A DNA stretch of 31,777 bases from IMG/VR virus record IMGVR_UViG_3300014838_000052, positions 1 to 31,777 of that record; one strand, given 5' to 3'. This DNA is from a virus. The position numbers and the translations under genes are program-made. The notes beneath the pieces were generated by a model that saw only the letters and a program-made list of their open reading frames with translations, searched no databases and was not told the origin of the DNA. Position 1 is the stretch's first letter. Each line of letters opens with the position of its first letter. Positions 2,927 to 31,777 of this stretch are shown one piece after another.

Positions 2927-3126
2927 TGCCTGACCGATCTCCATACGTCCCATTTAGACCAATCCGCATGAAAGTAGCATGTCGTTTAGGATCCATCCGC
3001 CAGCCCGTACACATTTCAACGGTTATACAGCAGGTTTTAATCAAATTATGTCCACCAATACAAACCCCTGAACCATGCGTTCCCGCACAGCCCAGGGGCA
3101 TTGTAGGCTATTTTGACGACTTTTAA
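2926..3126 (+). CDS. Hypothetical 66-aa protein
   Basis: The ORF starts one base inside the helicase stop codon (TAATG) with GGGGGG five bases upstream, so translational coupling is likely. The product MPDRSPYVPFRPIRM... is rich in Pro, Arg and Cys and ends GIVGYFDDF. No domain is recognised. Its stop codon at 3124-3126 overlaps the stop of the opposite-strand gene ending at 3123, so the plus and minus operons meet with no room for a terminator. The good start supports it, but the short length and atypical composition leave doubt. Confidence 0.5.
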   Translation: MPDRSPYVPFRPIRMKVACRLGSIRQPVHISTVIQQVLIKLCPPIQTPEPCVPAQPRGIVGYFDDF

Positions 3127-3266
3127 CAGTTATACCCATAACAAACAGGCTTTGGAGGGTCCCCAAACTTCTGCCCCTGGTCCCATTGACCGGTAGGATT
3201 TGAAGCTGATTGAGCCATGGCCACACCACCAATACATAAAAACACTATTAATAAAATACTTTTCAT
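3123..3266 (-). CDS. Secreted micro-protein with two cysteines
   Basis: The protein has 47 aa and starts MKSILLIVFLCIGGVAMA, a clear Sec signal peptide (basic n-region, hydrophobic core, AMA cleavage motif before Gln-Ser). The predicted mature part has only about 29 residues, is rich in Gly, Pro, Gln and Tyr and ends VCYGYNC, so a disulphide is possible after export. A perfect AGGAGG lies six bases before the ATG. The start overlaps the stop of the upstream gene by 4 nt. It is the last gene of the minus-strand operon. The family is unknown; a periplasmic or surface role such as interference with superinfecting phage is speculation. Confidence 0.65.
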   Translation of the reverse strand: MKSILLIVFLCIGGVAMAQSASNPTGQWDQGQKFGDPPKPVCYGYNC

Positions 3267-9621: not shown

Positions 9622-9930
9622 ATGAAAAAATATTTCTTAATTGCAGTTTCAGTATTGGCTGTAATAATTTTTTTGAACCATAAGGTTATTGCTCAAAATT
9701 TCCAAGTTTTATATGCGAAGCAAATTCAGTTTGAAGGAAATGGTTGTGGTTTTATATTACAAGGAGGCAATCCCATTAAGGCTGGAAATCAACAAATAAC
9801 CATACCAGATGGCACCGGTACTATTGCTACGAGCTATAATAATTACAATATGTTATTGGTAGCTCTTAAGGCTATTGATGCTGGTAAGGGGAATCATTCA
9901 GGAATTAACTGGACGAGTTTAGGTGTTTAA
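9622..9930 (+). CDS. Exported hypothetical protein inside the head module
   Basis: The 102-aa protein starts MKKYFLIAVSVLAVIIFL and has an AQ cleavage region near residue 25, a convincing Sec signal peptide. The mature part (about 77 residues) has one Cys, beta-rich sequence and ends HSGINWTSLGV. GGAGG lies seven bases before the ATG, inside the end of the previous gene. An exported protein between packaging and portal genes is odd. The signal matches those of the fibre cassette at 26815-31777, so it may be a related adhesin or attachment component. A hairpin and terminator follow. Confidence 0.6.
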   Translation: MKKYFLIAVSVLAVIIFLNHKVIAQNFQVLYAKQIQFEGNGCGFILQGGNPIKAGNQQITIPDGTGTIATSYNNYNMLLVALKAIDAGKGNHSGINWTSLGV

Positions 9931-15905: not shown

Positions 15906-16208
15906 ATGAACCTAGGAAAGAAGATGGAGAATAATGCGGAAAAGATGTTTCCTACGGCTGTTAAAGAACATCAAGAGCCAATGATTATACATAAAGAAAT
16001 AAACCTTCCTTTAAAATTGATTCAGGGTTTGAAATTAAAAAAGGGTGATAGAGTTCGCATTGAAGTTGAGGGCGAAATTACTGCTATGCACGATGATCAA
16101 TACGATTCTTCATTTACAATGAAGGCTGAAAACGGGGAAGTTGAAAGCGATAAAGACGAAATAGAAGAAGGCGAAAATACGATTTTAGGTAGTGAACAAA
16201 AGGAATAA
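15906..16208 (+). CDS. Small acidic hypothetical protein
   Basis: The 100-aa protein has a middle beta segment, LPLKLIQGLKLKKGDRVRIE then VEGEITAMHDDQYDSS. This pattern is seen in short phage virion proteins where a strand-rich K-x-G-D-x-V-x-x-x-x-x-G-E-I core is followed by an acidic tail; here the last 30 residues are strongly acidic. It may be a capsid-associated staple or decoration protein, but this is uncertain. AAAGGAG is six bases before the ATG. Confidence 0.55.
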   Translation: MNLGKKMENNAEKMFPTAVKEHQEPMIIHKEINLPLKLIQGLKLKKGDRVRIEVEGEITAMHDDQYDSSFTMKAENGEVESDKDEIEEGENTILGSEQKE

Positions 16209-16211
16209 TGA

Positions 16212-19031
16212 ATGTCTCCTGTTGCACAACCACAGACCGCAGATACTGGCAATGGTATGCAAATGCCTCAAATGCCAAATACAAAAATAATTCGCTACAA
16301 TCAGAGTTCGTTTGCGGGAGGAGAATATTCTCCAACCTGTGCTGCCCGCACGGACATGGAACGCTACAAGATTGGTCTTGAAACCTGCCGTAATGCTTAT
16401 CCTCAAATAACTGGCGCCGTAAGTAACCGTCCTGGCTGGCGTATGGTAGCTCCGTATAAGATTCTGGGGATGCCTCCAAGAGTAGTTAAGTTTATTTACT
16501 CAACCTCCCAAGTTTATTATATTGAAGTCGGAAATTACTACATGCGTTTTTATACTCAGAGGGCGCAGATACAGGCATCTGGAGTGGGGGCATGGGTAAC
16601 AAGTACTCCATATGTTGTAGGAAATTTCGTTACATATGGTGGAAACACGTATTACTGTATCGTTAATAATACCTCTGGCACATTCGTAAATGACTTAATA
16701 TCTGGTTATTGGGTATTACAGACAGCCTATGAGATTCCTACACCGTATGCTCAAGCCGACATTAATAATTTAAGATTTGAAGAATCCGCCGACTTCGTTT
16801 ATATAGCTCACCAGAAGTATCCTCAAATGATATTAGAAAGATTAGGAAATGCTAATTGGTCATTGGTATCTTATCTTGATCAGGTGATTGATGGGCCTTT
16901 TATGGATGAAAACACGGATATTACCTCTACGATTACGACAAACGTGACTACTGGCAATGGGTACATGTATTCGACTAAAGGCATATTTAATTCTGGTCAC
17001 GTTGGGGCGTTGTGGCGAAAAACTGATTATATAGAAGGACAATCAGTGAATGTTGCTCTTACAGGAACGGGACCAACATCTTCAATAAGTTGTTTTACAT
17101 CTTGGATGCTTGTAACAAATGGTACTTGGACTGGAACGATTACTCTTGAAATGTCCGAGGATGGAGGAAGCAATTGGACGAAATTACAAACATTTCAAAG
17201 TTCAGCGAATTATAATATTCAAACATCAAATACAGAAAGTGTAACAAATCATTTGGTTCCATTTCTATTGAGAGTTAATTGTACTGCCTTTTCTTCTGGA
17301 ACTATTAATGTAAATCTCTCAACACTTCCTTTTTACCAAGACGGTTTTGTTGAGATTACTTCATTCGTTTCATTGACCAATGTAGGCATTACCGTACTCC
17401 AAACTCTTGGGGCCATGGGTGCCACGCCAACGTGGGCTGAAGGCGCATGGTCCCCATATCGTGGTTATCCTGGGATGGTTCGCTTCTATCAAGACAGGCT
17501 TTGTTGGGCAGGCGCTCCGTTGTCACAGGCGGATTCGTATTGGCTAACAGTTGATGGTGACTATATCAGTTTCCTTACAAGCACTCCCGGTGAAGATTCA
17601 GATGGTATATCGGAACAACTTTCGTCAAGACAATTAAACGCTATAAATGGATTGGTCGGATTCCAGTCATTGCTTATGCTTACGTCATCAACATCATGGT
17701 CTGTTCAGCCAGTGTCAGGGGCGGCTTTGACGCCATCTACAGTTTATCAAGATATTCAGGATTACAATGGATCAGATGGGATTGATCCTGTGGTTATAGG
17801 TAATGAATGTATTTTTACACAGTTTCAAGGTAAGGTTATCCGTTCTATTGTTTATAATTTTTACACTCAATCATTTACTTCGTCTGAATTAAATCCATTC
17901 GCTCGTCATTTATTAAAGGATTGGTCAGTTGTTTCTATGTGCTATCAGCAGAATCCAGATAACATTGTTTGGATGCTACGAAGTGATGGTCAGTTAATTG
18001 GGTTGACGTATCTTAAAGAGCAGGACGTTGTAGCGTGGCATCATAACGATACGAATGGTGTGTTTAACTCGATTGATGCGGCACCTGGAACTGGATATAC
18101 GGAAGTCTGGGCATCGGTCACGCGACCTAATGGTGGGTTTATTGAAGTTTTGGAGAATAGGATTACTACAGATGTCCGTCAGGCTTTCTTCCTTGATAAT
18201 GGCATAAGCAATGTTGTTACAGTATTACCTGTGACTGGGGCGACGAACGCTAATCCTTGTATTATGAAATCAGTAGCTCATGGGTTAGCAACTGGAGACA
18301 TTGTTGAGTTTGATAGCATTGGCGGAATGACTGAGTTGAATGGAAACCAGTATTTAATGACGGTAGTTGATGCAGACCATTTTTCACTTCAAGACGTTTA
18401 CGTTAAAACAAATATAGATAGCACAGCATATGGTGTCTACACATCAGGAGGGAATTGCGTACAATGTTTCGCTACTTTCAGTGGACTTTCATACTTAAAC
18501 GGCCAAACGGTTTCCATTTTAGGGGATGGGTTTGTTTTTCCTCCACAAGTCATAAGCGGTGGAAGCGTAACTCTTACGAGAGCTTGCGGGTATGTTTCGA
18601 TAGGGATGCAATATCTTTCAGATGTTGAGACGTTGCCGGTGGAATTGTCGATGTGGTTTAATCCCGCGCCACCGATGACTTCTCAAGGACGAAGGGTCAA
18701 GATTGGCGGATGTTCATTTGGATTTTTGGATAGTCGTGGAGGATGGATTGGTGTAAATGTCAATGACGTTTATGGAAATCCATCGTTAAGAGAATCTTTC
18801 TTCCCGCCAAGAACTAATCAGAATCAAGTAATTCAGCTTTATACCGGCGACCTGCATCAAGTTATTGGCGGTGGATGGGAAGAAGGGGCGAGGTTGTTCT
18901 ATAGACAGTATGATCCTCTTCCTTTTACAATAACACGCATTATACCTGAAGTAATTGTAGGCGGAGCGACATCATTGGCTGGTGGATCGTATATTCAATC
19001 AGCATCAGGGGTTGGTTCTGTGACTCCATAG
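16212..19031 (+). CDS. Tail tubular protein B (nozzle) with inserted domains
   Basis: The 939-aa protein is longer than T7 gp12 (about 790 aa). The N-terminus SFAGGEYSPTCAARTDMERY then AYPQITGAVSNRPGWRMV is the classic nozzle signature. Residues about 128-169 (AWVTSTPYVVGNFVTYGGNT, ending GYWVLQ) resemble a type 5/12 carbohydrate-binding module. About residues 280-380 are an Ig-like insert with EMSEDGGSNWTKLQTF. Near residue 680-750 comes a VAHGLATGDIVEFDSIGGMT segment typical of phage tail beta-barrels. The nozzle forms the distal tail and carries fibres, so the inserts may bind sugars. AAAGGA is seven bases before the ATG. Confidence 0.8.
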   Translation: MSPVAQPQTADTGNGMQMPQMPNTKIIRYNQSSFAGGEYSPTCAARTDMERYKIGLETCRNAYPQITGAVSNRPGWRMVAPYKILGMPPRVVKFIYSTSQVYYIEVGNYYMRFYTQRAQIQASGVGAWVTSTPYVVGNFVTYGGNTYYCIVNNTSGTFVNDLISGYWVLQTAYEIPTPYAQADINNLRFEESADFVYIAHQKYPQMILERLGNANWSLVSYLDQVIDGPFMDENTDITSTITTNVTTGNGYMYSTKGIFNSGHVGALWRKTDYIEGQSVNVALTGTGPTSSISCFTSWMLVTNGTWTGTITLEMSEDGGSNWTKLQTFQSSANYNIQTSNTESVTNHLVPFLLRVNCTAFSSGTINVNLSTLPFYQDGFVEITSFVSLTNVGITVLQTLGAMGATPTWAEGAWSPYRGYPGMVRFYQDRLCWAGAPLSQADSYWLTVDGDYISFLTSTPGEDSDGISEQLSSRQLNAINGLVGFQSLLMLTSSTSWSVQPVSGAALTPSTVYQDIQDYNGSDGIDPVVIGNECIFTQFQGKVIRSIVYNFYTQSFTSSELNPFARHLLKDWSVVSMCYQQNPDNIVWMLRSDGQLIGLTYLKEQDVVAWHHNDTNGVFNSIDAAPGTGYTEVWASVTRPNGGFIEVLENRITTDVRQAFFLDNGISNVVTVLPVTGATNANPCIMKSVAHGLATGDIVEFDSIGGMTELNGNQYLMTVVDADHFSLQDVYVKTNIDSTAYGVYTSGGNCVQCFATFSGLSYLNGQTVSILGDGFVFPPQVISGGSVTLTRACGYVSIGMQYLSDVETLPVELSMWFNPAPPMTSQGRRVKIGGCSFGFLDSRGGWIGVNVNDVYGNPSLRESFFPPRTNQNQVIQLYTGDLHQVIGGGWEEGARLFYRQYDPLPFTITRIIPEVIVGGATSLAGGSYIQSASGVGSVTP

Positions 19032-19039
19032 GATTAAAT

Positions 19040-19963
19040 ATGGACTTAACTTATAAAGATGAAGTGGTTGGCATTATCCGTCAAGCGACACATGAGGACT
19101 GCTTGATTGTAGGTTCTAATCTAAGAATACGTGAAATGCAAGAAATCTGGGGTTATGACAATAGCCTTCCAGTTGAAGGCGTAACAAATTCTTTTAATAA
19201 GAGTGTTGTATCTATGACCATCTTACATGATGACAAGCCGGTAGCAATTTTCGGCATAATGATATTAAAAGAAGTACCGACGCTATGGCTTATGCCAACA
19301 AATGATTTGGAGAAAATTGGTCGTAACTTTGTAAGGAATACGAAGGAATGGATTAATAAGATGTTAGAAGAATATCCAACGCTAGTGGCATACGTGCATT
19401 GGGCAAACGACGAATCCTTGCAATGGATGAATTTTGTTGGAGGTCGTCAGATAGAAAAAGTTTTCATGGGTAAAGATAATTCTCCCTTTTGGAAGTTTGA
19501 GTTCAAGAAGAATAAAGAATTAGCGACTCGCAACGTAATCTTAGACATTCAAGCAAAAATGGAAAAAGACCCAAGAGCATTATGGGGAAATGCTTTTCCA
19601 TTGAAGCATAGTTTTGCAGAAGGATTATATATCCGTGAAGTATTCCTTCCGAAAGGATATGTTATTGTTACACGAATTTTTAAAAAGTCCCATGCTACAT
19701 TTATGCTATTGGGTGATTGTAGCGTTCTTACTGAGCGTGGCGTCCTGCGAGTAAAGGCACCCATGCACATGGTAACTGCTGTTGGTACAAAGAGGGTTAT
19801 CTATACGCATGAAGATACGGTTTGGATTACGTGTCACGCGAACCCTGATAACATTCGCGACATTGAAGAGCTTGAAAGGATACACGCAACAAATGATTAT
19901 AAAGATTTAGATGCGGAGGAGAGTAAATTTATGGAAGCTTTCGTAACTGAGGTGGTTAGATGA
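19040..19963 (+). CDS. GNAT-like and cupin fusion protein
   Basis: The 307-aa protein appears bipartite. Residues about 1-150 resemble the T7 gp13-like/GNAT phage domain (EVVGIIRQATHEDCL, VSMTILHDDKPVAIFGIM, TLWLMPTNDLE, WINKMLEEYP). Residues about 190-275 (FAEGLYIREVFLPKGYVIVT, FMLLGDCSVL, VGTKRVIYTHEDTVWITCH) match the cupin-like domain usually found as a separate small phage protein. Such GNAT-like proteins are encoded between tail and internal virion genes and may help assembly; an acetyltransferase activity is not shown. The stop overlaps the next frame. Confidence 0.65.
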   Translation: MDLTYKDEVVGIIRQATHEDCLIVGSNLRIREMQEIWGYDNSLPVEGVTNSFNKSVVSMTILHDDKPVAIFGIMILKEVPTLWLMPTNDLEKIGRNFVRNTKEWINKMLEEYPTLVAYVHWANDESLQWMNFVGGRQIEKVFMGKDNSPFWKFEFKKNKELATRNVILDIQAKMEKDPRALWGNAFPLKHSFAEGLYIREVFLPKGYVIVTRIFKKSHATFMLLGDCSVLTERGVLRVKAPMHMVTAVGTKRVIYTHEDTVWITCHANPDNIRDIEELERIHATNDYKDLDAEESKFMEAFVTEVVR

Positions 19964-20022
19964 ATTTTATAAAATTTTGCATAAATAGTTTTCCTAAATA
20001 TATGAGCAACGAGAGAGGGACG

Positions 20023-20631
20023 ATGGCTTGGATAGCTATTGGTACCGCTGTTGTTGCGGGTGGGTATACTGCTTATTCTAGCTATCAACAGGGCGCTGCA
20101 TCAAAGGCTTTTCAGAACTACCAAGCCCAACAACAAGAAGTAGATGCACAAGCGGCCTATGCAGTTGGTCAGGCTCAATCCCAACAAGTCGCACAACAGG
20201 GAGAGATTACCTCACAGACACTTGCTTTTAAGAACGCACAGGAAATAGGAAAGATGAGGGCTGATGAATCAGCCAATGGAATAACAGCTAATTCAGTTAC
20301 CGCCGAGAACCTTGAGGTAAATTCTTTCAATAAGGGCAACAGGGATGAATCAATATTGAATTACAACGCACAGAATCAAATTTGGAGCATAAAGACTGCG
20401 GCTTCCGAGCAAGCGTTTACTGATACGCAGCAGTCAGCTTTGGATACCATTCAGGGAGAAAACGAGATGGCAGCAGGTGAGATGAACGCTACGGGGACGT
20501 TGTTGAGTACGGCGGCTACGGTGGCTAGTCTTGGATATAAGGGAAGCACGGTTAATCCGGCCGGTGGAGGAGCAACTTTAGGTTCACCTACACAAATGGG
20601 AACTGAAATGATTATGGGGGTTCCACAATGA
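20023..20631 (+). CDS. Internal virion protein (T7 gp14-like)
   Basis: From the ATG at 20023 the product is 202 aa and starts MAWIAIGTAVVAGGYTAYSS, a short hydrophobic N-terminus followed by Gln/Ala-rich helices (QAQQQEVDAQAAYAVGQAQS). This is the usual make-up of podovirus gp14-type core proteins, which are ejected and span the outer membrane during infection. GAGAGAGGG lies directly upstream. An in-frame ATG at 19960 (223 aa) with GAGG seven bases upstream and ATGA overlap is also possible. The next gene overlaps the stop by 4 nt. Confidence 0.7.
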   Translation: MAWIAIGTAVVAGGYTAYSSYQQGAASKAFQNYQAQQQEVDAQAAYAVGQAQSQQVAQQGEITSQTLAFKNAQEIGKMRADESANGITANSVTAENLEVNSFNKGNRDESILNYNAQNQIWSIKTAASEQAFTDTQQSALDTIQGENEMAAGEMNATGTLLSTAATVASLGYKGSTVNPAGGGATLGSPTQMGTEMIMGVPQ

Positions 20632-22292
20632 GTGGCATAAGAGTACCAGACGCACAATACGAAGCACCAACACCGACACCGGAACAAGCACAAGTTCCTA
20701 TGCCTAGACAGCCAGTAGCCAATGCCAATATGTTTGGGGCGGCACAGGCAGAGGCTGGGGAACAGGCTGGACAGAAGGTTCAAGGGGCGGTTGTTGATAT
20801 TGCCAAAGACATCATCCAGCAAAAAGCATGGGCGCAAACTTCTCAAGTATTCGAGAACAGGGAGTTGATGAATCAGTATGCCGATAAGTTGCTAAACGAT
20901 ACTGATACGCACATGGTTACAGACCCTAACGGGACTGAAAGACAAGTGGCGAACGGTTATCTTTTAAGAACTGGCCCCGATAAAGTAAGTCCTGATTTAA
21001 TCAAACAACAGTTACAGCAATACCAGAATAGTTTAAGTCCAGACGGTAAGGGTGGCGGATGGCTGATGGAAGTCGCCAAGATGAACTCAAGGTATACGGA
21101 TGCACCGGTTTCGGATGCCTATGGTAAGGTTTCTACATACAATAAAGATCAGAATAAAAGAGAAGTTGCACAGACATATCGGAACGCTTATTCAGATTCT
21201 TTATTAAGTTCCGCTAATCAACCAAACATGGCGGCGGCACTTCATTATACTCAAGCACCTTTGCAGTATATGTTAGCCAATGATCAAGTATCACCTAAAG
21301 ATCATGTGGATGACCAGATTAAGAATGGCCTTTATACTTTAAATCATTATGCTCAAAGCAATATTGGTAAAATTCCGATTGATCAGCTAAAGCAACAAGT
21401 TGACGATGCTCAGAAAGCCGCTCCTCATATTATTACGGATGACGTTAAGGCTGAGGTGAATAGAAATATTGATTTGTACAATGACGCTTACCAAAAGCAG
21501 GTGAAGATCAATCAGGAACACAATCAGAGTGATGCTGTTAAGAAATATGCCGATGGGATAGCTTCTGAAAAATATAATGCTTCAAACTCACTTGCTATTT
21601 TAGCAGATAAGAACTTACCGGCGAATGTCGGGCAGGCTTATTACAATGCGGTGATGAATGTTAGTGGACAGAAGATTGCCAGCATCAATAAGGGTGGCAC
21701 GATGAATGATAAGTTGCCCTTAACTGGAAAAAGCTTAGGCATACCTTTAGCTGGTGAAAAGAATAAAGAAGCGGCTGATACAGCTAATTATACTTTAGGT
21801 ATTGCCAATGCTTTGAACACCAAAGATGCTACAGATAAATTAGTATCAGCGATCACAGATGATAAACTTGATAAGACACAGTTAGAAGTCTATACGCGTA
21901 CACTTGCTTTAGTTGGACAGTATGCCCCTACGGAAACAGAGGCTGGTGATGGTAAGACGATTGATCCCAAAGGCGCTCCGTTAATAGCTGGTCTGAAAAC
22001 GGCAGCGGAATATGCAAAAGGTAAGCCTGGTGGGACAAGTTTGATAAAGAATTATCTGGATGGCGTTCAAGCACCTAACGCTGATCCTACTGCCGCTTTG
22101 ACTGGTGCAATGAGAACACACGCTTTGCAGATTAATCCTAAGTTGGCAAATATACCAGAAGGCGGAATCACTGCTACTGATAAGTACGGAAATAGAAGAA
22201 TGATATTTCCTGATCTTCATACAGAAGCGATTAAAAAATCAAGTGGGGGAATGAATGTCCCAAGCAGCAGTAGCAAGTCCAGCGCAAGCTGA
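20628..22292 (+). CDS. Internal virion protein (T7 gp15-like)
   Basis: The 554-aa protein is almost wholly helical and rich in Gln, Asn, Lys and Asp. The N-terminus is Pro-rich (YEAPTPTPEQAQVPMPRQP). It has no catalytic motif. The position after the gp14-like gene and before a very large virion protein, and the size (T7 gp15 is about 750 aa), support a role in the ejectosome tube. The start has GGGGG with an ATGA overlap. Its last 38 bases overlap the next gene in another frame. Confidence 0.65.
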   Translation: MSGIRVPDAQYEAPTPTPEQAQVPMPRQPVANANMFGAAQAEAGEQAGQKVQGAVVDIAKDIIQQKAWAQTSQVFENRELMNQYADKLLNDTDTHMVTDPNGTERQVANGYLLRTGPDKVSPDLIKQQLQQYQNSLSPDGKGGGWLMEVAKMNSRYTDAPVSDAYGKVSTYNKDQNKREVAQTYRNAYSDSLLSSANQPNMAAALHYTQAPLQYMLANDQVSPKDHVDDQIKNGLYTLNHYAQSNIGKIPIDQLKQQVDDAQKAAPHIITDDVKAEVNRNIDLYNDAYQKQVKINQEHNQSDAVKKYADGIASEKYNASNSLAILADKNLPANVGQAYYNAVMNVSGQKIASINKGGTMNDKLPLTGKSLGIPLAGEKNKEAADTANYTLGIANALNTKDATDKLVSAITDDKLDKTQLEVYTRTLALVGQYAPTETEAGDGKTIDPKGAPLIAGLKTAAEYAKGKPGGTSLIKNYLDGVQAPNADPTAALTGAMRTHALQINPKLANIPEGGITATDKYGNRRMIFPDLHTEAIKKSSGGMNVPSSSSKSSAS

Positions 22293-25200
22293 TACAACAC
22301 AATTTGACATGAGTTCCGCTGTTCCTGAAACGGAAGATGGCAAAGCTGTGTCTGCTATGCCCGCGTTTGATTTGAGTTCGGCTGTGCCAGAAGATCAGAT
22401 AAGCAGGGCAGAACCTAAATCTTGGCAGGATCAAGCATTGAATTTTTTGACAACTCCTTTTAGGAAATCTCCCGAAGATCGTCAAGCAGAAGCCATGAAT
22501 ATCTATGCTATATCAAAGTCAACTGGTATGTCGATGGAAGATGTGTCTAAGAATTATGATCAACTTTCAAGGAATCCTAAAGTTACAGGGATGATGCCGG
22601 AACCGACTAAGGGACAGTATATGGGCGCGATGATGACCGAAGCAATGATACCTTCTGCGCCACTGTTATTGACTACTCAAGGAATAGTTGGGTTAGGTGT
22701 ATTTACTGGAATAAATAAGTTGCTTGATATGGCGGAAGATGAGTATCTTCCTAAAGACACTAATCAAGGGACAAAAGATTTACTTGATATTGGTAAATTA
22801 GCGGCTGGTGCAGTTGGGGCACACGGAGCAGTTGGTGCCGTTGAACGAGGCGTAGATGGTCTTGTAGACAGTCTTATGGGCGATGTTATGCCTCACCCCG
22901 TAGACGCAGTTCCAACTATGGATTTAGCCGCTGAACATATCAAAGCCATTACCGATAGCAAACTTCCCGATGAAGCCAAACAAGATTTGCTTGGTAGATT
23001 AGGCGTAACGCAAGATCATATTGATGCGTCGGTGGCTTCTGGGAAGCCTATACGGGTGCCTTTTACGAACGTGATTAATATGGCTCAGAGTCCTCATTGG
23101 GATGATGTGGCTGGTGAGATTACGGAGAATGGGTTGCCTAAGACGGGGATTGAGACGCCGGAAGTTAAGGCGGTACTTTCGGGAGAAGCATCCCCGGACA
23201 ATATTCCTAATGCCGAAGGAGAACAACAGGGTAATTTTGGGAAAGGTCAGAGTCCATTATTGTTGGATTATCTTGCACAATATTTACCACCAAAAGTTAT
23301 TGCATCATTGACAAATGATGAAAGGTTAAAATTAGCAAATGGGCCGTGGCAAGATTTAAGGGATTTTGCTTCTCAATTTGAAGGTGAAAAGAATCTTGGC
23401 GTTAAGGGTCCTGATTATTATAAAAATCTTATGTTAAAAGGAGAATTAAATGGATACTTCTCAGGGGAAGAAGAAGGCGGAAAAGGAAAAGTCAAAAACA
23501 CCTCCAATGTATCACTTGCGGAAGTTGAAAAGCAAGTTAGGAGTCTTGACACTGAAAACCTCGAAAGTTTGATGGATACTCGCTATGAAGCGGGGGCATC
23601 GCAGAAGGAGTTGGACTTCCTTGAAAATATTTATGCTGAACGCATGAGTGAGGAAGAGCCTAATGTTTCCGAGGATAACGAACCTTCATTGGAAGGTAAT
23701 GGTAGATACGGAGTTGATTTAGAAAGTCAATTAGAGTCTTTTTATTCTCAGTTTAAGTTGCCAGTTAATGCACGTGATGGTCAGTATACCAATAAAGAAT
23801 TGATGACAAATATAAGAGAGAATTTAAAAGCACATGGCGACTTAAAAGATGTATCCGATGAAGATATTGTTAATGCCGCTAAAGATGTTGCTGAATGGAA
23901 AGAGAAATTGAACGAACGCCGTGCCGCTAAAGGTGAACCTATAGTTGAGTCAAAGGTTGAAGCAGAGAAACCCATCTCTCCCATGACCGGCGGCCTCCAA
24001 GAAGAAACCGGCAAATTTGGCGAACACAACACTTTATTCACCGAACAAATGGCCAACGAAGCCCGCGCCGCAATCAACAGCAAGCTCTCCGGCCTACACA
24101 GCGGCGTTGACCCTACCATTATAGGAGACATGCTTAAAGTCGGTGGGTATCATTTTGAAGGTGGAGTGCGTGAGTTTGGCAAATGGTCAGAGAAGATGAT
24201 CAATGATTTAGGTGAGAATGTTAAGCCATACTTACAGCAGGTTTGGGATGGTTTACAGAAGGAAGCTCCGAAGATGGCACAGCCGAAGGTTGAGGCGACG
24301 GAAGATGAACTTTCTAAACAAAAATACTTCCCCTTAGAAAAACTTGGCATTAAGAAGATTGTTAGTTCAAAGACAGGAGAAGTTGACCTCAATCGAAGTG
24401 GCAAGGATATGAGGGAAAGATATTTAGGAACAATGAATGAGAGGATGCAACGGGTATTTGATTTAAAAGATGATATTAAGACTCTTGAGAAAGATAAAGC
24501 ACAGCGAGAAGGCCAATTTATAAATGCAGGTTTTAATGGCGACGTTGAAAAAACTAAGGAATGGATTGCTAAACTTGACGCTGAAATAAAAGACGAAGAT
24601 AGGCAATATTGGGAAAAAGTTGTTAAGCCTGCCGCAGAAGCATCATTGAACCTTTCGGAAGGAGCTAAAGAAGGCATTACTTTAGGCAATCAATACTTCA
24701 GAGAAGCTGGTCTTGCAATGAAGTCCGTTGGAGCTATACGGACATTCCTTGAGAATTATGGTATCAATCGTTTATATGAACCTGATTCAGCAGAGAAAGT
24801 TCTTAAAGGAAATGAGTTTGATAATCCTCAACAGAGTACTGGACATGCCAAGCAACGTGTATTTGAGAATCCCTTAGAAGCGGTTTTATATGGCAAGCGT
24901 TTCAAGACAATGGATTATGCTGACCTTATTGGTATACACGGTGAAGAAGCCGCTGCCGTTACAACTGGTCGTCAATTTGTTCAAGAGACTGTTCCCGAAG
25001 AATTGACAGCATGGACAGACAGAAAGAAAGTACCTGCTGGATGGTCGCAAGTTGGAAATATGGAACGTGATATTCCAATGAAAGATGAAAAGACGGGAGA
25101 GTTAATTCTTGATAAAGACGGGAATCAAGACATTAAACATCAAGTCCTTGTTGCTCCTAAAGAAATAGCCGACATAATGGGCGTTATTACTGATCCTGAT

Positions 25201-26805
25201 AATTTGAAGAAAGTAAACGCATATCAGAAAGTTCAAGCTGTTAATAATTTCACAAAATCATTTAATGTTATGATTGGTCTATTCCATGACAGAAACTTTG
25301 TTGAACAAAAATTATTTTCACCTGGTGGCATAAAAGCATTAACAAATACTTTTGGTGGTAATTTAAGATCATTAATGGGGAAAGATGATTGGCGTCAAGG
25401 AAGATTAAGATTCTTAAAAAATGGTGGAATGTTAGGGTCTTTAAGTACAAATATTGATGTTCTTAAACCAACGTCAGAAGAAGGAACAGAGGGTCAGAAT
25501 TGGTTAAAGAAGATAGAGAAAATGCCGATTATAAAAGGGGCTACGGCTTTAGTGGAATGGCATAGGGATAATTTGTTTGATGTCATGGGTTCATATTATA
25601 AAGTTGACAGCTATATGAAACGTGAAGCAATGTGGGATTTAAAGAATCCTAATGCCACAGAGGACGAAAGAACAGAAGCAATGCGAGGATACGCCAGGGC
25701 TTCCAATAATGACTTTGGTGGCCAGAGTTGGTTCGCGCGAGGATTTAATAAAACCACAATGTCCGTAGCAAGATTATTTTCATTTGCCCCTGATTGGCTA
25801 TATTCAGCTTTCCGTACAGCAAAGACAGCCGCTATTGATTGGAAGGGGATAGCTGGAAGTCAAGGAACAGAAGGTGGTGCGGCCAGAGCTTTATTGATTA
25901 AACAATTCATGTATGCTACTGCCGCAACTCAAGCGGCTAATTATGCTATTACAGGACATTTTACTGATAAGAACACAAAGGGAAACGAATGGTCGGTTGA
26001 GCTTAATAAGAATATTCATATTTCTTTATATGCGGCTGGTCTTGGGGAGCTTGTTAAATTGGCGTCAGATGTTGGTAATAATGGTTGGCTAACTGGTCTT
26101 GGGCAGTATTTGAAAGGTAAAGCATCTCCAATAATTCGTTTTGTGTCTACTTTTGTATCTCATACAAACTATCACAATCAAGACATAACAAAAGAAACTG
26201 GTAATATTGGTGGTCAGATTGCTAAAGTCGTTCCAGAAGAATATCGGGATGATGTTGCAAAACAAATAAATTATGTCAATGAACTTGCTTCTACGATTGC
26301 ACCAGTTCCGTTTGCTGTTGACCCTGGCAATGTGGGCTATATCGCAGATCAAGTTAAAGATGCTATGGCAGGCAAGAAGGCCGATATAGCTGGAAGCCTT
26401 ATGTTGCCTACTGTATTGGCTAAATTTTCAGCGGGCGAATCCCCCGAACGCCAACAACAGGACATCGACACCGAAGTCGAAAAAGGCTTAAAAAATAAAG
26501 ACGATACCGCGGCAAACAAATACCTTGCATCCGGAGACATCTCTCAAGCCAAGATAGACGAACTACAAACCAAAGCCGATGAAACACCTTTGGAAAAATC
26601 TTATAAATCTCTATCTGTTGAAAAGATTATGAAGAAAGCCGATGGCAATATTGACAGCATGGATGCAGATGACAAGGATTCATTAAAAACAATGCTTAAC
26701 GATAAGTATGATCGCATGGTTTCTGCAAATAAAGCATCACCGAACGAAATAAAAAGAATCGGTGATTTACTTGAGGATTTCTATGATAAGCATAAAATAC
26801 AATAA
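22255..26805 (+). CDS. Large internal virion protein (T7 gp16-like)
   Basis: The 1516-aa protein is the largest in the window; T7 gp16 is about 1320 aa. The N-terminus repeats FDMSSAVPE (17-25) and FDLSSAVPE (38-46). A hydrophobic segment lies at 142-163. A module LSGLHSGVDPTIIGDMLKVG, GYHFEGGVREFGKWSEKM (about 610-650) recurs in giant phage virion proteins. Most of the rest is helical, with Ala/Gly membrane-active-looking stretches late in the chain. I see no lysozyme or transglycosylase motif, unlike T7 gp16. It probably enters the cell with the DNA as part of the ejection channel. GGGGGA lies four bases before the ATG. Confidence 0.7.
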   Translation: MSQAAVASPAQADTTQFDMSSAVPETEDGKAVSAMPAFDLSSAVPEDQISRAEPKSWQDQALNFLTTPFRKSPEDRQAEAMNIYAISKSTGMSMEDVSKNYDQLSRNPKVTGMMPEPTKGQYMGAMMTEAMIPSAPLLLTTQGIVGLGVFTGINKLLDMAEDEYLPKDTNQGTKDLLDIGKLAAGAVGAHGAVGAVERGVDGLVDSLMGDVMPHPVDAVPTMDLAAEHIKAITDSKLPDEAKQDLLGRLGVTQDHIDASVASGKPIRVPFTNVINMAQSPHWDDVAGEITENGLPKTGIETPEVKAVLSGEASPDNIPNAEGEQQGNFGKGQSPLLLDYLAQYLPPKVIASLTNDERLKLANGPWQDLRDFASQFEGEKNLGVKGPDYYKNLMLKGELNGYFSGEEEGGKGKVKNTSNVSLAEVEKQVRSLDTENLESLMDTRYEAGASQKELDFLENIYAERMSEEEPNVSEDNEPSLEGNGRYGVDLESQLESFYSQFKLPVNARDGQYTNKELMTNIRENLKAHGDLKDVSDEDIVNAAKDVAEWKEKLNERRAAKGEPIVESKVEAEKPISPMTGGLQEETGKFGEHNTLFTEQMANEARAAINSKLSGLHSGVDPTIIGDMLKVGGYHFEGGVREFGKWSEKMINDLGENVKPYLQQVWDGLQKEAPKMAQPKVEATEDELSKQKYFPLEKLGIKKIVSSKTGEVDLNRSGKDMRERYLGTMNERMQRVFDLKDDIKTLEKDKAQREGQFINAGFNGDVEKTKEWIAKLDAEIKDEDRQYWEKVVKPAAEASLNLSEGAKEGITLGNQYFREAGLAMKSVGAIRTFLENYGINRLYEPDSAEKVLKGNEFDNPQQSTGHAKQRVFENPLEAVLYGKRFKTMDYADLIGIHGEEAAAVTTGRQFVQETVPEELTAWTDRKKVPAGWSQVGNMERDIPMKDEKTGELILDKDGNQDIKHQVLVAPKEIADIMGVITDPDNLKKVNAYQKVQAVNNFTKSFNVMIGLFHDRNFVEQKLFSPGGIKALTNTFGGNLRSLMGKDDWRQGRLRFLKNGGMLGSLSTNIDVLKPTSEEGTEGQNWLKKIEKMPIIKGATALVEWHRDNLFDVMGSYYKVDSYMKREAMWDLKNPNATEDERTEAMRGYARASNNDFGGQSWFARGFNKTTMSVARLFSFAPDWLYSAFRTAKTAAIDWKGIAGSQGTEGGAARALLIKQFMYATAATQAANYAITGHFTDKNTKGNEWSVELNKNIHISLYAAGLGELVKLASDVGNNGWLTGLGQYLKGKASPIIRFVSTFVSHTNYHNQDITKETGNIGGQIAKVVPEEYRDDVAKQINYVNELASTIAPVPFAVDPGNVGYIADQVKDAMAGKKADIAGSLMLPTVLAKFSAGESPERQQQDIDTEVEKGLKNKDDTAANKYLASGDISQAKIDELQTKADETPLEKSYKSLSVEKIMKKADGNIDSMDADDKDSLKTMLNDKYDRMVSANKASPNEIKRIGDLLEDFYDKHKIQ

Positions 26806-26814
26806 GGAGAATTT

Positions 26815-28110
26815 ATGAAAAAAATATTATTATACGCAATGCTTACCTTCGTCCTTTTGGCAGGAATGTCAACTCAAAGTCATGCAGTTGTATCTTCAAC
26901 TGTGAACAAGAACTCATATCTCTGTGATGGATCTAACACATCATTTTCCTATACTTTCCCTATTATATTGTCTACGGATATTCAGGTATATACGATTGAC
27001 TTAAATGGGGCGACAACTCCACAAACAAGTTTCTCGGTAAATACGTTGAATCATACGGTTACTTATCCTACTGTTGGTTCGCCATGTACTTTGAACTATA
27101 CGATTGTATTGTATCGTAATGTGCCGTTAACACAGAATGTTGCAGCATCTAACCAAGGGCCAGCGCCATCACCGATAGTTATGAGCATGAGCGATAAGTT
27201 GACAATGGAGATTCAGCAATTACAGGAACAGATGAATAGGGCTTTAGTTGGACCAATATCTTCTACAACTGGATTAGCACTTCCAGCTGCGTCTAATGGG
27301 ACGGTTCTAGGATGGCAAGGTGGTAATTTGTATAATTTTGTGCCAAATTCATCAACATATTTAACACCATCAACTGATGTAACGATGGGTGGGGAAACGC
27401 CTACGGACAGTCTAATACCGACACAGAAGGCGGTAAGTATATTTGTTAATGCTTTTAGTTACGCAACGGCAGGTGCTAATAGCAATATCACATCATTGAC
27501 AGGACTAACAACGCCTTTGACAACGGCACAAGGTGGAACAGGAACAGCGGCTAATGCAAATACAGCGAATGGTGCTTTAATCTTAAATAGTTCTGGTCAA
27601 ATACCGTCAGGGATAAGTGGTCAGTTATTAAGTGGAGTTATTGGAAAAGTGTCGGTTACTACTTTTACCTCTCAATCCTCCGTCTCCGTTCCTTTGGCTA
27701 GTGGGAATGTGTATAAGGTGATGATAGTAGCTTTACAAAACACTTCTAATAGTAATCCTACTGGAATTACATTTAATAGTGATTCTACATCTGGACATTA
27801 TCAATGGGTAGGAACATATAATTATGTAGGAGACGCAACAGTTAATCCAGCAGGGAGCGGAAGTGCAACTTTTATTAACGTAGTTCAACCACAAGCAACT
27901 TCTCAATTTATGATTTCAATGGATGTATCAACAATTACAAATGGAACTTATAACGCATATATAATTTCTAATGCAAGTTATCTACAGAGCAACAATTTGA
28001 CACAGTTTATGGTTTCTGGATTATATTCTTCAACAACTGTTACTAGCATGCAAATTACACCATCAGCAGGCACAATAAGTGGCACGATATACGTTTATCA
28101 ATTAGCATAA
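26815..28110 (+). CDS. Tail fibre with T7-type N-domain and signal peptide
   Basis: The 431-aa protein starts MKKILLYAMLTFVLLAGM and has SHA near residue 24, a clear Sec signal. Next comes a T7 gp17-like fibre N-domain: SYLCDGSNTSFSYTFPI, later IVLYRNVPLTQ, then MSDKLTMEIQQLQEQMNRAL (about 130-149). That domain normally binds the tail nozzle. The C-terminal part has fibre motifs (TPLTTAQGGTG) and a beta-rich tip. The mature chain has just two cysteines (CDGS and SPCTL). AAGGAG precedes the ATG. A cytoplasmically assembled fibre should not need export, so the signal is unexpected. Confidence 0.75.
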   Translation: MKKILLYAMLTFVLLAGMSTQSHAVVSSTVNKNSYLCDGSNTSFSYTFPIILSTDIQVYTIDLNGATTPQTSFSVNTLNHTVTYPTVGSPCTLNYTIVLYRNVPLTQNVAASNQGPAPSPIVMSMSDKLTMEIQQLQEQMNRALVGPISSTTGLALPAASNGTVLGWQGGNLYNFVPNSSTYLTPSTDVTMGGETPTDSLIPTQKAVSIFVNAFSYATAGANSNITSLTGLTTPLTTAQGGTGTAANANTANGALILNSSGQIPSGISGQLLSGVIGKVSVTTFTSQSSVSVPLASGNVYKVMIVALQNTSNSNPTGITFNSDSTSGHYQWVGTYNYVGDATVNPAGSGSATFINVVQPQATSQFMISMDVSTITNGTYNAYIISNASYLQSNNLTQFMVSGLYSSTTVTSMQITPSAGTISGTIYVYQLA

Positions 28111-28118
28111 GGAGATCT

Positions 28119-28187
28119 ATGAAAATATTATTATCAGTAGTTTTAAGTTTTTTTCTATCTGGACTATCTTTTGCTCAAGGAGAATAA
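28119..28187 (+). CDS. 22-aa ORF consisting almost only of a signal peptide
   Basis: The ORF begins MKILLSVVLSFFLSGLSFAQ and stops two codons later. AAGGAG is well spaced upstream, and its own last codons form the AAGGAG of the next gene. The predicted cleavage after SFA would leave three residues. It may be a decayed exported gene, a translational leader for the coiled-coil protein, or a tiny membrane-active peptide. The good ribosome site and the position within the signal-peptide cassette favour expression. Confidence 0.45.
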   Translation: MKILLSVVLSFFLSGLSFAQGE

Positions 28188-28188
28188 T

Positions 28189-29061
28189 ATGCTTACTTAT
28201 GACGAATACATGAAGCAACAAAAAGATTACTGCGACGCTCTTGATTTGCTCAAACGTGAAGTGGCAAATATGCGTAGTGCAAAGGCTAATGAGGCCACAA
28301 TGACAGTCAGACAACTTGAACCACGCATACCTGAACTTGAAGGCAAGATAAACACCCTTAACGCCGAAATCAAACGGCTCGACGGACTAATCGCAACCAA
28401 ACAAAAACAGTCAGAATATGATGAACAATATTGGAAAAAACATTATTTAGATCTAGAAACCAAATTAAACAATGCCCACGATGCCCGTACAGACATGTTT
28501 AAAGGTAAGGACGACCAGTATGACGTCCGTGAAAAGGCTATTACTGACAGCAAGAACGATTTGGATAAACGTGAACAATTACTTATTGAAGCTAATAATA
28601 AACTTATCGAATCACAGGTTTTACACAATGATTTGATAAATAGTTTCATTGAAGAGAAATCCGTACAAGAAGATAAAATTAAGAAAATAATGTCTAATCT
28701 TAATGGACATATAAATGAAGCAAATGCTGAAAAGTTGAAACAGAAAGAATTAACAGTACGGCTAGAAGAACAGGCCGTTGAATTGTCTAACAAGATTAAA
28801 CAAGCGGAATCTACCATTGCCAGTATTGGCGAAGCTCAAAAGAAGTTAGATGAAGCAAGTACTTTGGTAGTTACTGTTGATAGTCGTAATAAAGAACTCG
28901 ACGCTCGTGAAGAGAAGCTAAACGAATCGCATGTAAAAAGTCGTGCAAACCTTCAACGTGATACAGAAAGGTCTGACGCTATTTCTTTGAGAGAACAGTC
29001 TCTTAGTGAGAGAGAAAAAAATATTAAATTAGCTGAAGCGTCTATTGCTAAACGGGGGTAA
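28189..29061 (+). CDS. Long coiled-coil protein
   Basis: The 290-aa protein starts at ATG 28189, five bases after AAGGAG; a TTG-started extension from 28171 would overlap the signal-peptide ORF and is not preferred. From residue about 20 to the end it is almost continuous heptad-repeat helix, rich in Lys, Glu, Gln and Leu. Unlike its neighbours it has no signal peptide. It could be a chaperone or scaffold for fibre assembly, or a structural rod. No known domain is recognised. The next gene starts two bases after its stop. Confidence 0.65.
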   Translation: MLTYDEYMKQQKDYCDALDLLKREVANMRSAKANEATMTVRQLEPRIPELEGKINTLNAEIKRLDGLIATKQKQSEYDEQYWKKHYLDLETKLNNAHDARTDMFKGKDDQYDVREKAITDSKNDLDKREQLLIEANNKLIESQVLHNDLINSFIEEKSVQEDKIKKIMSNLNGHINEANAEKLKQKELTVRLEEQAVELSNKIKQAESTIASIGEAQKKLDEASTLVVTVDSRNKELDAREEKLNESHVKSRANLQRDTERSDAISLREQSLSEREKNIKLAEASIAKRG

Positions 29062-29063
29062 TT

Positions 29064-29300
29064 ATGGGAGCGCCACTTAATTCAATACCGACGAATATTG
29101 TTCCTGATTTAATGCAGAATTTGTTTGATTATTCAAGTGGTACGCTTGTTGTTTATGCTGGTTATGCACCGATGGGAGCGGCTACAACTGACGATAAATG
29201 GACTATATTTTATTATAAATATGATGGTAATAATAATGTATTATCAAAACAAACATGGTTAGGAAAATGGTCGCAACGGACTTCGGGGAATTATTCGTGA
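29064..29300 (+). CDS. Small phage protein of the fibre region
   Basis: The 78-aa protein contains GTLVVYAGYAPMGAATTDDK and WTIFYYKYDGNNNVL, ending QRTSGNYS. This pattern is common in short proteins beside podovirus fibre genes (Y-x-G-x-A-x-x-G-x-x-T-x-x-x-x-W, ending R-x-S-x-x-Y). No function is assigned. Its stop TGA overlaps the GTG start of the next gene. Confidence 0.6.
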   Translation: MGAPLNSIPTNIVPDLMQNLFDYSSGTLVVYAGYAPMGAATTDDKWTIFYYKYDGNNNVLSKQTWLGKWSQRTSGNYS

Positions 29301-29932
29301 AAAAAATAATAATTTTTATATTATGTTTAATGGGTACGGTTACGGCAAATGCGACTGTTCAAGTCAAGGCTATTACAGGACCGCCTGTCCAAGTATGCCA
29401 GCCATCAGATCCTAACTCTGCTTGTGGTGGTGGCGGAAATCCGGGCGGTTCTAACACTCAGGTACAGTATAATTCTTCAGGTACTTTTGCCGGCTCAAAT
29501 ACTTTTACCTTTGATGGAACAAATCTTTTTATTGGCAGTATCCAGTTAGGGGGTGGTGATATATCAGTTCCTCAGTCTGGTGCGTTTGATGGAACACTAA
29601 ACCTTTACAATAACTATGCATACCCACAATACATAACAGATTATAATAATGTATCACAGCCTTCTGCATACGCCCTTTTAGAATTTGATGGCACTGGTGT
29701 AGCGTGGACTCAGATTTCCTCTGCTTGGCTGTCTGACGGAAAGACCGGAAGCGGTTACATCGTGTTCAGCAATACCCCAACCATATCGACTCCAGTGATA
29801 AGCGGTTCAGAAACATTCAATGGTTCAACAAGTGGTTCAACAACCGTATCAGCGCATGCGGTTGCTCGTGGGAGTGTAGATTTGCAAACAGTCCAATATA
29901 TTATCGCAAACAATTTAGGGGAGGGTGTATGA
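29297..29932 (+). CDS. Exported fibre-like protein
   Basis: I start this at GTG 29297, which overlaps the previous stop (GTGA) with GGGGA seven bases upstream; an earlier in-frame start at 29255 would bury the signal peptide. The 211-aa product begins MKKIIIFILCLMGTVTANA, a Sec signal. The mature part has VCQPSDPNSACGGGG, then fibre motifs NTQVQYNSSGTFAGSNTFTF and GYIVFSNTPTISTP. Two cysteines lie close together after the cleavage site. It overlaps the next gene by 4 nt. Confidence 0.65.
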   Translation: MKKIIIFILCLMGTVTANATVQVKAITGPPVQVCQPSDPNSACGGGGNPGGSNTQVQYNSSGTFAGSNTFTFDGTNLFIGSIQLGGGDISVPQSGAFDGTLNLYNNYAYPQYITDYNNVSQPSAYALLEFDGTGVAWTQISSAWLSDGKTGSGYIVFSNTPTISTPVISGSETFNGSTSGSTTVSAHAVARGSVDLQTVQYIIANNLGEGV

Positions 29933-30435
29933 AGAAGTTACTCTTGTTCTTAGGGATTCTATTCTGGTCTACAAGTGGGTTTTGTGCTTACACTACGAAT
30001 AGCACAACGAACCCTCTAGTTCCTGATGTTCAATTCCAGAATTTCGTTCAGGGAACGGATACTGCTGGCACGTATAAAGTAGTGTTTACTCCGGGGGCTA
30101 ACTCCGCATCTGGTTCTGTTGGTGGTAGATTATACGCAATTTACGAGAGTAATAATGACACTAGCACAACTCATCTTGTCAGTTGTGAAGAAGTTGTATC
30201 TGGTGTTTCTTATGTTTTCACCGCAACAACTACCGCTGTGAATGATGGCACGGCTAATGGAGTTCCAGCTAAGAATTTCATTATTTCTGGAAACTTACCT
30301 AATCTAAAAATGGAGACAAATGGTAATACGTACCTTGATTTTTCTTCTGACGGTCAAGTTGTGAAGTGTACTTATGCTACAGCCTTAACGTCAACTGACC
30401 TAATTAATCTTATAGCTGTTGGAGCTGATTACTAA
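29929..30435 (+). CDS. Exported beta-rich protein
   Basis: The 168-aa protein starts MKKLLLFLGILFWSTSGF followed by a C-A-Y cleavage region, a Sec signal; the Cys does not fit a lipobox. The mature domain is beta-rich with two further cysteines (VSCEEV and VKCTYA) about 60 residues apart, suggesting a disulphide-bonded sandwich. The start overlaps the previous stop by 4 nt and the stop overlaps the next ATG by one base. It has no recognised family and is probably a receptor-binding or surface protein by context. Confidence 0.6.
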   Translation: MKKLLLFLGILFWSTSGFCAYTTNSTTNPLVPDVQFQNFVQGTDTAGTYKVVFTPGANSASGSVGGRLYAIYESNNDTSTTHLVSCEEVVSGVSYVFTATTTAVNDGTANGVPAKNFIISGNLPNLKMETNGNTYLDFSSDGQVVKCTYATALTSTDLINLIAVGADY

Positions 30436-31754
30436 TGAAGAAGCTATTACTTACCTTAATTCTTTTATTCCTTTGTTCCAATGCTTTTGCATTGACTAAT
30501 CAATACGCTTGCACTTCTGGTGGTACCTGGTCAGGGAGTATTTGGGTATTAACCACAGGTGCACAGGTCGCTTGTACTGGTGGTTCAACTCCAATAACAA
30601 CAGATGAGCAAGTATTAAATTCTTCATCGGGGAACGTGACCCTTACTGCTTCAACGTCAACGGCTGACCTTTCTATGTCAGGGTATACCGGAACATTTAC
30701 TATTAATTCCGCAGTAACTCTTACAGATACAGGAGCCGCAGATTTACAAGGCGTATTTTCTGCTGGAAGCCCGACAACAAGCATTATAGTTATAGAAGGT
30801 GGGGTTACCCTTGATGCTACTCCAACTGGTTCTTCTTTTCCCTTGTTAAATTTCACCACAGCGAATCAGACTCTAACTTCTGGTGGATTTACTTGGCCCG
30901 GGAACTTGAACTTTTCCTTGACATCAGGAGTATTTACTTTAGTTGGGAATTGGATTACCTCTGGATTGACCACCTTTAGTAACACAACTGATTTGAACTA
31001 TACAACAACAGAAACGTACTCTACAAATAATGGACTTACCTTAAGTGCGGCAACTATATCAAATGCCAGCAATGCTACAATTATCATAGGTGGTGGAAAC
31101 TGGGCTGGGCAGGTTTACTTATATAATCCTGTAATTTTAAAACCCTCTGTAAGTAATATATCCATTCAGAATGTGGACATTGGAGCGTCCATTACCTACA
31201 CTCCATCGACATATAGTGTTTCCCAATCTAGTGGTTATGTAGCAAGCATTGCTCTGAACAGCACAATTAATACCTTCGGAATGACTTGGTATGAAATACA
31301 GGCATATAATACTACCAATACAATAACTCTTTCTTCTACTCTATCTACACAGCTTTTATATATGAATCAGGGGAATGTAACATTCACTGGTAGTAATATA
31401 GTTACTCAAAGTTACTTACAAAATGAAAATTCAACAGTAATTTTCCAATCCGGACTAACACTTTACGTGACCAATTCACTAACCTTTGAAAGTGTTTATG
31501 GTGCTGGGGCATCAACCCTAAAATCAGGAACAGCCTCATCACCTTTTTACCTTGTTTATACTGGCCCGTTATCTGGTGAAAATATTGAATCTGGATATTT
31601 TACGGACGTGGCTGCTTCGGGTACACCTATACCTTATTATGGGCCTAAACTATTAAATTACTTCGGAGGAACTTTAACTCGCACAAGTGGTATAGTCAAC
31701 GTAACAGCAGCAAATATAAATAAAAAACAGATAAATTTCTACAATGGGGTCTAA
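30435..31754 (+). CDS. Exported repetitive adhesin-like protein
   Basis: The 439-aa protein starts MKKLLLTLILLFLCSNAFA, a strong Sec signal. The mature chain is Thr/Ser/Asn/Gly-rich with repeated short strands (TLTDTGAADLQGVF, FTINSAVTLT, NGLTLSAATISNAS), which suggests a beta-helix or beta-solenoid stalk. Two cysteines occur near the new N-terminus (YACTSGG and VACTGGS). A C-terminal segment ends KKQINFYNGV. Such proteins serve as fibres or surface adhesins. AAGGAG is not seen; coupling by the TAATG overlap is likely. Another gene follows. Confidence 0.65.
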   Translation: MKKLLLTLILLFLCSNAFALTNQYACTSGGTWSGSIWVLTTGAQVACTGGSTPITTDEQVLNSSSGNVTLTASTSTADLSMSGYTGTFTINSAVTLTDTGAADLQGVFSAGSPTTSIIVIEGGVTLDATPTGSSFPLLNFTTANQTLTSGGFTWPGNLNFSLTSGVFTLVGNWITSGLTTFSNTTDLNYTTTETYSTNNGLTLSAATISNASNATIIIGGGNWAGQVYLYNPVILKPSVSNISIQNVDIGASITYTPSTYSVSQSSGYVASIALNSTINTFGMTWYEIQAYNTTNTITLSSTLSTQLLYMNQGNVTFTGSNIVTQSYLQNENSTVIFQSGLTLYVTNSLTFESVYGAGASTLKSGTASSPFYLVYTGPLSGENIESGYFTDVAASGTPIPYYGPKLLNYFGGTLTRTSGIVNVTAANINKKQINFYNGV

Positions 31755-31770
31755 TATTAAAGGAGAACGT

Positions 31771-31777
31771 ATGAAAA
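31771..31777 (+). CDS. Start of a further gene, cut by the window end
   Basis: AAAGGAG (31759-31765 region) is followed at normal spacing by ATG AAA A, reading Met-Lys and then the window ends. The same MK(K) start and ribosome site as the preceding exported proteins suggest another signal-peptide gene, but only two codons are visible. Confidence 0.4.

Follow-up and report, generated by a model that had tools for sequence, protein, structure and literature searches.

The window analysed here, a 31,777-base contig of an uncultured virus, ends in a cassette of fibre-like genes, several of which open with a predicted Sec signal peptide (SP). We give a probability of about one half to the reading that these are genuine tail fibres or receptor-binding proteins which have acquired Sec SPs and which would be exported, cleaved, in many cases stabilised by disulphides and most likely docked late. 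The usual assumption is that tailed phages both produce their fibres and attach them inside the cytoplasm; our literature searches returned no report of SPs on such fibres, and the fibres in the annotated phage records that we examined are without them.

Results

A predicted signal peptide upstream of the virion-anchoring domain

The main tail fibre gene (26815-28110, plus strand) encodes 431 aa, comprising a SP (residues 1-24, predicted cleavage SHA/VVSS), an anchor domain (about residues 26-147), a shaft and a C-terminal head. Judged by its profile matches, the product is a podovirus tail fibre or tailspike with an anchor domain of the phrog_1640/Dpo31 type: residues 26-147 match PHROG profiles for tail and tail fibre proteins, with residue 26 aligned to profile position 3 (phrog_1640, E 3e-16), and a profile of the anchor domain hits the N-terminal domain of Dpo31, a tailspike (PDB 28lx, 8ck1), at E 6.7e-36. 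The domain is shared over the whole anchor with the known family (Dpo31 of Cobetia phage Carin1, PDB 28lx/28mg/8ck1; the epsilon15 tailspike; the fibre of Pelagibacter phage HTVC010P; phrog_1640), whose members open at the domain and have no SP, whereas the fibres of the window and of its relative L004 (see below) have a 24-aa signal. In each of the six homologues read from annotated records, the initiator Met is where the anchor domain starts; in the window fibre the 24-residue SP comes first. In all but one of the 60 matches listed (71 annotated phage records), the anchor match starts at query residue 18-26; the one listed exception, HTVC035P, aligns from residue 3, and its fibre gene opens at the domain with no signal. 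The predicted SP has therefore been added in front of an otherwise ordinary virion-anchoring domain.

The position of the domain relative to the cleavage site is also informative. After the predicted cleavage, a conserved Tyr becomes residue 11 of the mature protein in both the window fibre and that of L004, and it is residue 11 after Met removal in HTVC035P, HTVC010P, ctVRi840, epsilon15 and BcepC6B (at 12 in one Vibrio phage). Since this position is equal in fibres with and without a SP, the predicted cleavage would restore the N-terminus of the cytoplasmic fibres. A second start giving a SP-less window fibre was considered and rejected: neither of the internal Met residues, Met9 and Met18, is conserved in L004, which has Ile in place of the latter, and no spacing separates Met18 from the AGGA in front of it. 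No SP-less copy of the same fibre was found in the window or adjoining the fibre in L004. The AlphaFold model of the window fibre (pLDDT 34) was unusable.

Conservation in relatives

Scans for relatives used three queries: the fibre itself, an alignment of the N-terminal pair, and the internal virion protein. The sole relative found with the fibre region was IMGVR_UViG_3300049716_000014 (L004), the only other contig, L003, having an unrelated fibre. The L004 internal virion protein is 60% identical to the 22255-26805 product over the C-terminal 835 columns, and its fibre keeps the SP (MKRLMLSALVAFGLLSAISTPSYA, followed after the cleavage site by IVSS). Identity between the two fibres is 61% over SP and anchor, 63% over the anchor and 43% over the whole mature fibre, indicating a retained SP and anchor together with a diverging tip. 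The C37/C91 pair, which in the window fibre lies entirely within the anchor domain, is not present in L004, where the cysteines are elsewhere (C291/C314). Two further L004 genes carry signals, the one next after the fibre (16203) and a fibre-like gene (16719), the latter with a weak score.

The preliminary description had asked whether homologues lack the hydrophobic N-terminus, and the answer is divided: the distant homologues from annotated records are without it, but the close relative L004 has it. In a more distant genome (G010/L027, portal 47% identical), the fibre is present with no signal.

Two other L004 genes of this region deserve mention. The 18132-19157 product, SP-less and extremely rich in Cys, Tyr and Gly, lies in the fibre cassette and resembles a fibre in which certain codon positions are hypervariable. 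Adjoining the fibre genes, 19625-20521 reads as a GT9-type (heptosyltransferase-like) glycosyltransferase-like ORF, which may modify fibres or the host lipopolysaccharide.

Signal peptides across the cassette

SPs were scored with a home-made heuristic (basic start, hydrophobic core, no acidic residue and a small-X-small site; pass at >=3.5). Within the cassette, 26815, 28119, 29297 and 30435 pass and are predicted SPs; these four and the outlying 9622 show a basic n-region, a hydrophobic h-region and a small-X-Ala site. The heuristic fires for 1/321 ORFs of 80 unrelated phage loci and for one (9622-9930) of the 30 other ORFs of the window; shuffled N-termini pass in 0.06% of cases overall, and shuffles reach a protein's own score in 0-1.3% of cases. 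SPs had been claimed for all four large proteins: the products of 26815, 29297, 29929 and 30435 do all open with MKK and a hydrophobic core, and three of them reach 3.5, but the N-terminus of 29929 is atypical (score 2.63), being hydrophobic with an ambiguous cleavage site (GFC/A or FCA/Y).

The gene starts are fixed by Shine-Dalgarno sequences (SD) and by overlaps with the preceding stops: AAGGAG precedes 26815, 28119 and 31771, GGGGAGG precedes 29929, and stop/start overlaps are found at 29297 (GTGA), 29929 (ATGA) and 30435 (TAATG). All ORF positions given in the preliminary description are correct, and its bare signal peptide is borne out: 28119-28187 (plus strand) encodes 22 aa only, namely MKILLSVVLSFFLSGLSFAQGE, behind a good SD, and passes the score. 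As it is located where L004 has a SP-bearing 72-aa gene (16203-16421), it is, by this comparison, probably the remnant of a similar gene. Downstream on the same strand follow a coiled-coil protein (28189-29061, 290 aa) and a 78-aa protein (29064-29300), both inside the cassette and both without SP by the heuristic. The next gene, 29297-29932 (plus strand, GTG start), encodes a SP-bearing fibre-like protein of 211 aa (cleavage ANA/TV) with the motif GGSNTQVQYNSSGTFAGSNTFTFDGTNLFIG. The two last complete genes, also on the plus strand, encode a SP-like protein of 168 aa (29929-30435) and a SP-bearing protein of 439 aa (30435-31754, cleavage AFA/LT), neither of which has a family match in profile searches. 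As described, another gene beginning MK starts at 31771 (31771-31777, plus strand): a SD and ATGAAAA are visible before the window end truncates it.

The claim of two cysteines outside the cleavage region also holds, with exactly two in each large mature protein: C37/C91 (26815), C34/C43 (29297), C86/C147 (29929) and C26/C47 (30435). Those of 29297 sit in VCQPSDPNSACG, which resembles VCKPYDTTPGCG of the L004 fibre-like gene (16719-17879). Two other readings of the N-termini were rejected. The cleavage regions read as free of a lipobox ([LVI][ASTVI][GAS]C), which sets aside lipoprotein (signal peptidase II) signals, and the five SP-coding segments are only about half identical, which sets aside a recent duplication of one such segment.

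Genomic context of the cassette

The contig is classed as a fragment of an epsilon15/HTVC010P-like podovirus. Profile matches identify the portal (PF12236, E 4e-130), the major head protein (phrog_212) and internal virion proteins (phrog_308); the closest annotated relatives of the portal, all below 60% identity, are podoviruses (Uetakevirus-type enterobacterial, Caulobacter, Bordetella BPP-1 and Pelagibacter phages). The fibre cassette begins right after the gene for a large internal virion protein (22255-26805, plus strand, 1516 aa), immediately 5' of the main fibre; in HTVC035P the fibre gene likewise comes immediately after internal virion proteins. Further upstream, the 19040-19963 product combines an internal-virion (Gp13-like) N-terminal half with an adhesin/short-fibre match in its C-terminal half, and could be the virion's own receptor-binding protein, without SP. 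A large tail protein (16212-19031), with a CBM_5_12-like stretch (weak match) and an E1_FCCH/endosialidase-barrel-like stretch, is a possible second carbohydrate-binding part of the virion.

The outlying SP-like gene 9622-9930 (plus strand, cleavage VIA/QN) lies between terminase and portal and bears the fibre-type motif ITIPDGTGTIATS; its homologues occupy the equivalent place in L005, L006 and L009. On the minus strand, outside the structural module, 3123-3266 is a 47-aa ORF with an AGGAGG SD and a SP-like start (AMA/QS). The terminase-like ORF of another locus (L008:418-3030) has 870 aa, compared with about 520 in relatives, an apparent insertion that is possibly intein-like. No tRNA was found within the 31,777-base window, and scans of genome contigs for a host returned no match.

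A second fibre family

Among 80 IMG/VR loci sharing the fibre motif of 29297, none has a SP on the motif-bearing ORF, so that fibres are normally without SP. A second, unrelated fibre family (motif TADASQVMANYN), reached through the chance match to L003, differs: about half of 80 IMG/VR loci carry a SP. The Q of QVM stands at mature position 20 in 17 of 26 SP-bearing members, the same position as the mode among 30 SP-less members (20 in 16, 21 in 9), and cleavage would again restore the SP-less N-terminus. The AXA-type site is fixed relative to the domain in those 17/26 members although the signals span 18 to 23 residues. Cleavage is called well before the domain border in 4 members and is without a call in 2; cleavage sites are longer or poorly placed in L125, L141, L142, L144 and L148.

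A cysteine pair flanks the motif in 20/24 SP clusters vs 0/21 SP-less clusters, and in one locus (L138) both cysteines are shifted together. The tree of the family is poorly resolved: SP status changes about five times at most, and the association does not amount to many independent events because one contrast only lies on well-supported branches. In a model of the domain (pLDDT 82), the second cysteine is borne by helix 19-38 and the first lies in the N-terminal coil; a PDB fold search with this domain gave no match.

SP proteins of these phages match tail fibre or tail families (L125, 1.7e-27; L146, 3.9e-18; L143, 2e-13; L113, 8e-12; L116, 2.8e-12), and in L136 the SP fibre is located downstream of a major head gene. 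SPs are found on 30/195 other ORFs in SP loci vs 3/275 in loci with SP-less members, and 28 of these 30 extra ORFs lie no more than 3.5 kb from the fibre. Among the plasmid, phage and Methylophilales relatives examined, the fibres are SP-less. Yet another family of fibre-like proteins with a SP, the third (motif EASQ..CLN), was seen in L139 (2052), L141 (7078) and L142 (2885 bases after the fibre), its members showing both cysteines or neither.

Discussion

The preliminary description had suggested that the fibres are exported and either added to virions later or used to decorate or block the host surface. Export of the SP-bearing fibres is well supported by comparative data, namely the SP kept in the relative, its placement and the cysteine pair in the second family; later addition and surface decoration or blocking are inseparable by sequence. 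From these data we infer a route in which fibre or receptor-binding proteins that acquired SPs of the Sec/signal-peptidase-I type would be exported through Sec during infection, and cleavage of the signal would leave a mature N-terminus the same as that of cytoplasmic fibres. Many fibres would be stabilised by a disulphide formed outside the cytoplasm, through periplasmic oxidation. The folded fibres, most likely waiting in the periplasm, would then dock, by means of the usual anchoring domain, onto tails that lysis has set free, an attachment at or after lysis that would be both late and extracytoplasmic.

The main rival, which we consider unlikely without dismissing it, is that the exported fibres are not virion parts and serve as secreted decoys that coat or block host receptors, for superinfection exclusion or to shield progeny from debris or siblings. 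Secretion alone would be enough for such a role, several SP-bearing fibre-like proteins are encoded per phage, 19040-19963 offers another candidate receptor-binding protein without SP, and the GT9-like ORF lies beside the L004 fibres. However, a virion-anchoring domain and an exactly conserved N-terminal length are needless for a decoy, and no SP-less copy of the same fibre was seen in the window or adjoining it in L004. Late docking is favoured for the first of these reasons and is our best guess for the purpose of export. Two points weigh against it: while in the periplasm, fibres could become bound to surface components of the host itself, and the virion may have another receptor-binding protein (19040-19963, with 16212-19031 as a weak candidate).

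It is a good deal less probable that the hydrophobic N-terminus stays uncleaved, as a membrane anchor or insertion tail that would either keep the fibre on the inner membrane through assembly or have a part in ejection. The longer or poorly placed sites of the five second-family members named above and the weak site of 29929 would fit such a tail, but AXA-type sites at a fixed place in 17/26 members, behind signals of 18 to 23 residues, and the linked cysteine pair of that family argue for cleavage. Very unlikely, in turn, is a cargo of lysogenic-conversion genes or of surface adhesins of the host type. Bacterial surface proteins do typically have SPs, and 29929 and 30435 are without family match, but the first gene of the cassette has a phage fibre anchor domain directly after an internal virion protein, and in the other phages the SP proteins belong, by their matches, to tail fibre families and sit within the structural module. 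Finally, chance or mis-annotated starts, with hydrophobic N-termini misread as SPs, can hardly account for the pattern, for although the predictor is home-made and 29929 scores low, the background (1/321) and shuffle rates are minimal, the SP is conserved in L004 and the starts are set by SDs and stop/start overlaps.

In vitro, particles can receive P22 tailspikes or T7 fibres as the final step of their assembly. As preformed trimeric fibres attachable last to otherwise complete particles, the P22 tailspike and T7 gp17 resemble what is proposed here, but both their synthesis and their attachment are cytoplasmic, and they lack a SP. The pIII and pVIII proteins of filamentous phages are virion proteins with cleaved Sec SPs, and pIII has disulphides; filamentous phages, however, assemble at the membrane, whereas the window comes from a podovirus, a tailed dsDNA phage whose head genes are cytoplasmic. 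Lys44 of fOg44 and the endolysins of the J5a clade are tailed-phage late proteins with a Sec signal, as here, but they are lysis enzymes and not receptor-binding virion proteins. Secretory endolysins are known from tailed phages (J5a clade, PMC8878798), the target proteins of phage DGRs are stated to lack SPs (PMC6199706), and the literature on Bacteroides phages mentions unassigned SPs. We put forward tentatively, as a possibility that falls short of even odds, a class of tailed phages in which fibres of at least two unrelated families would be exported by Sec, folded and oxidised in the periplasm and assembled to completion outside the cytoplasm at or after lysis, a split-compartment route that is undescribed for tailed phages.

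Judging from the loci surveyed, the pattern of SP-bearing fibres is wider than one phage and recurs in many uncultured soil phages. If late docking were true for many uncultured phages of soil and peat, final assembly and disulphide-stabilised receptor binding would move to another compartment. If the fibres were instead decoys, superinfection control in these phages would include a layer of secreted proteins derived from fibres. Either reading would alter the annotation of receptor-binding proteins, since the presence of a SP would cease to be a sign of host cargo, and the pattern suggests that phage fibres are made or used in a manner not yet described.
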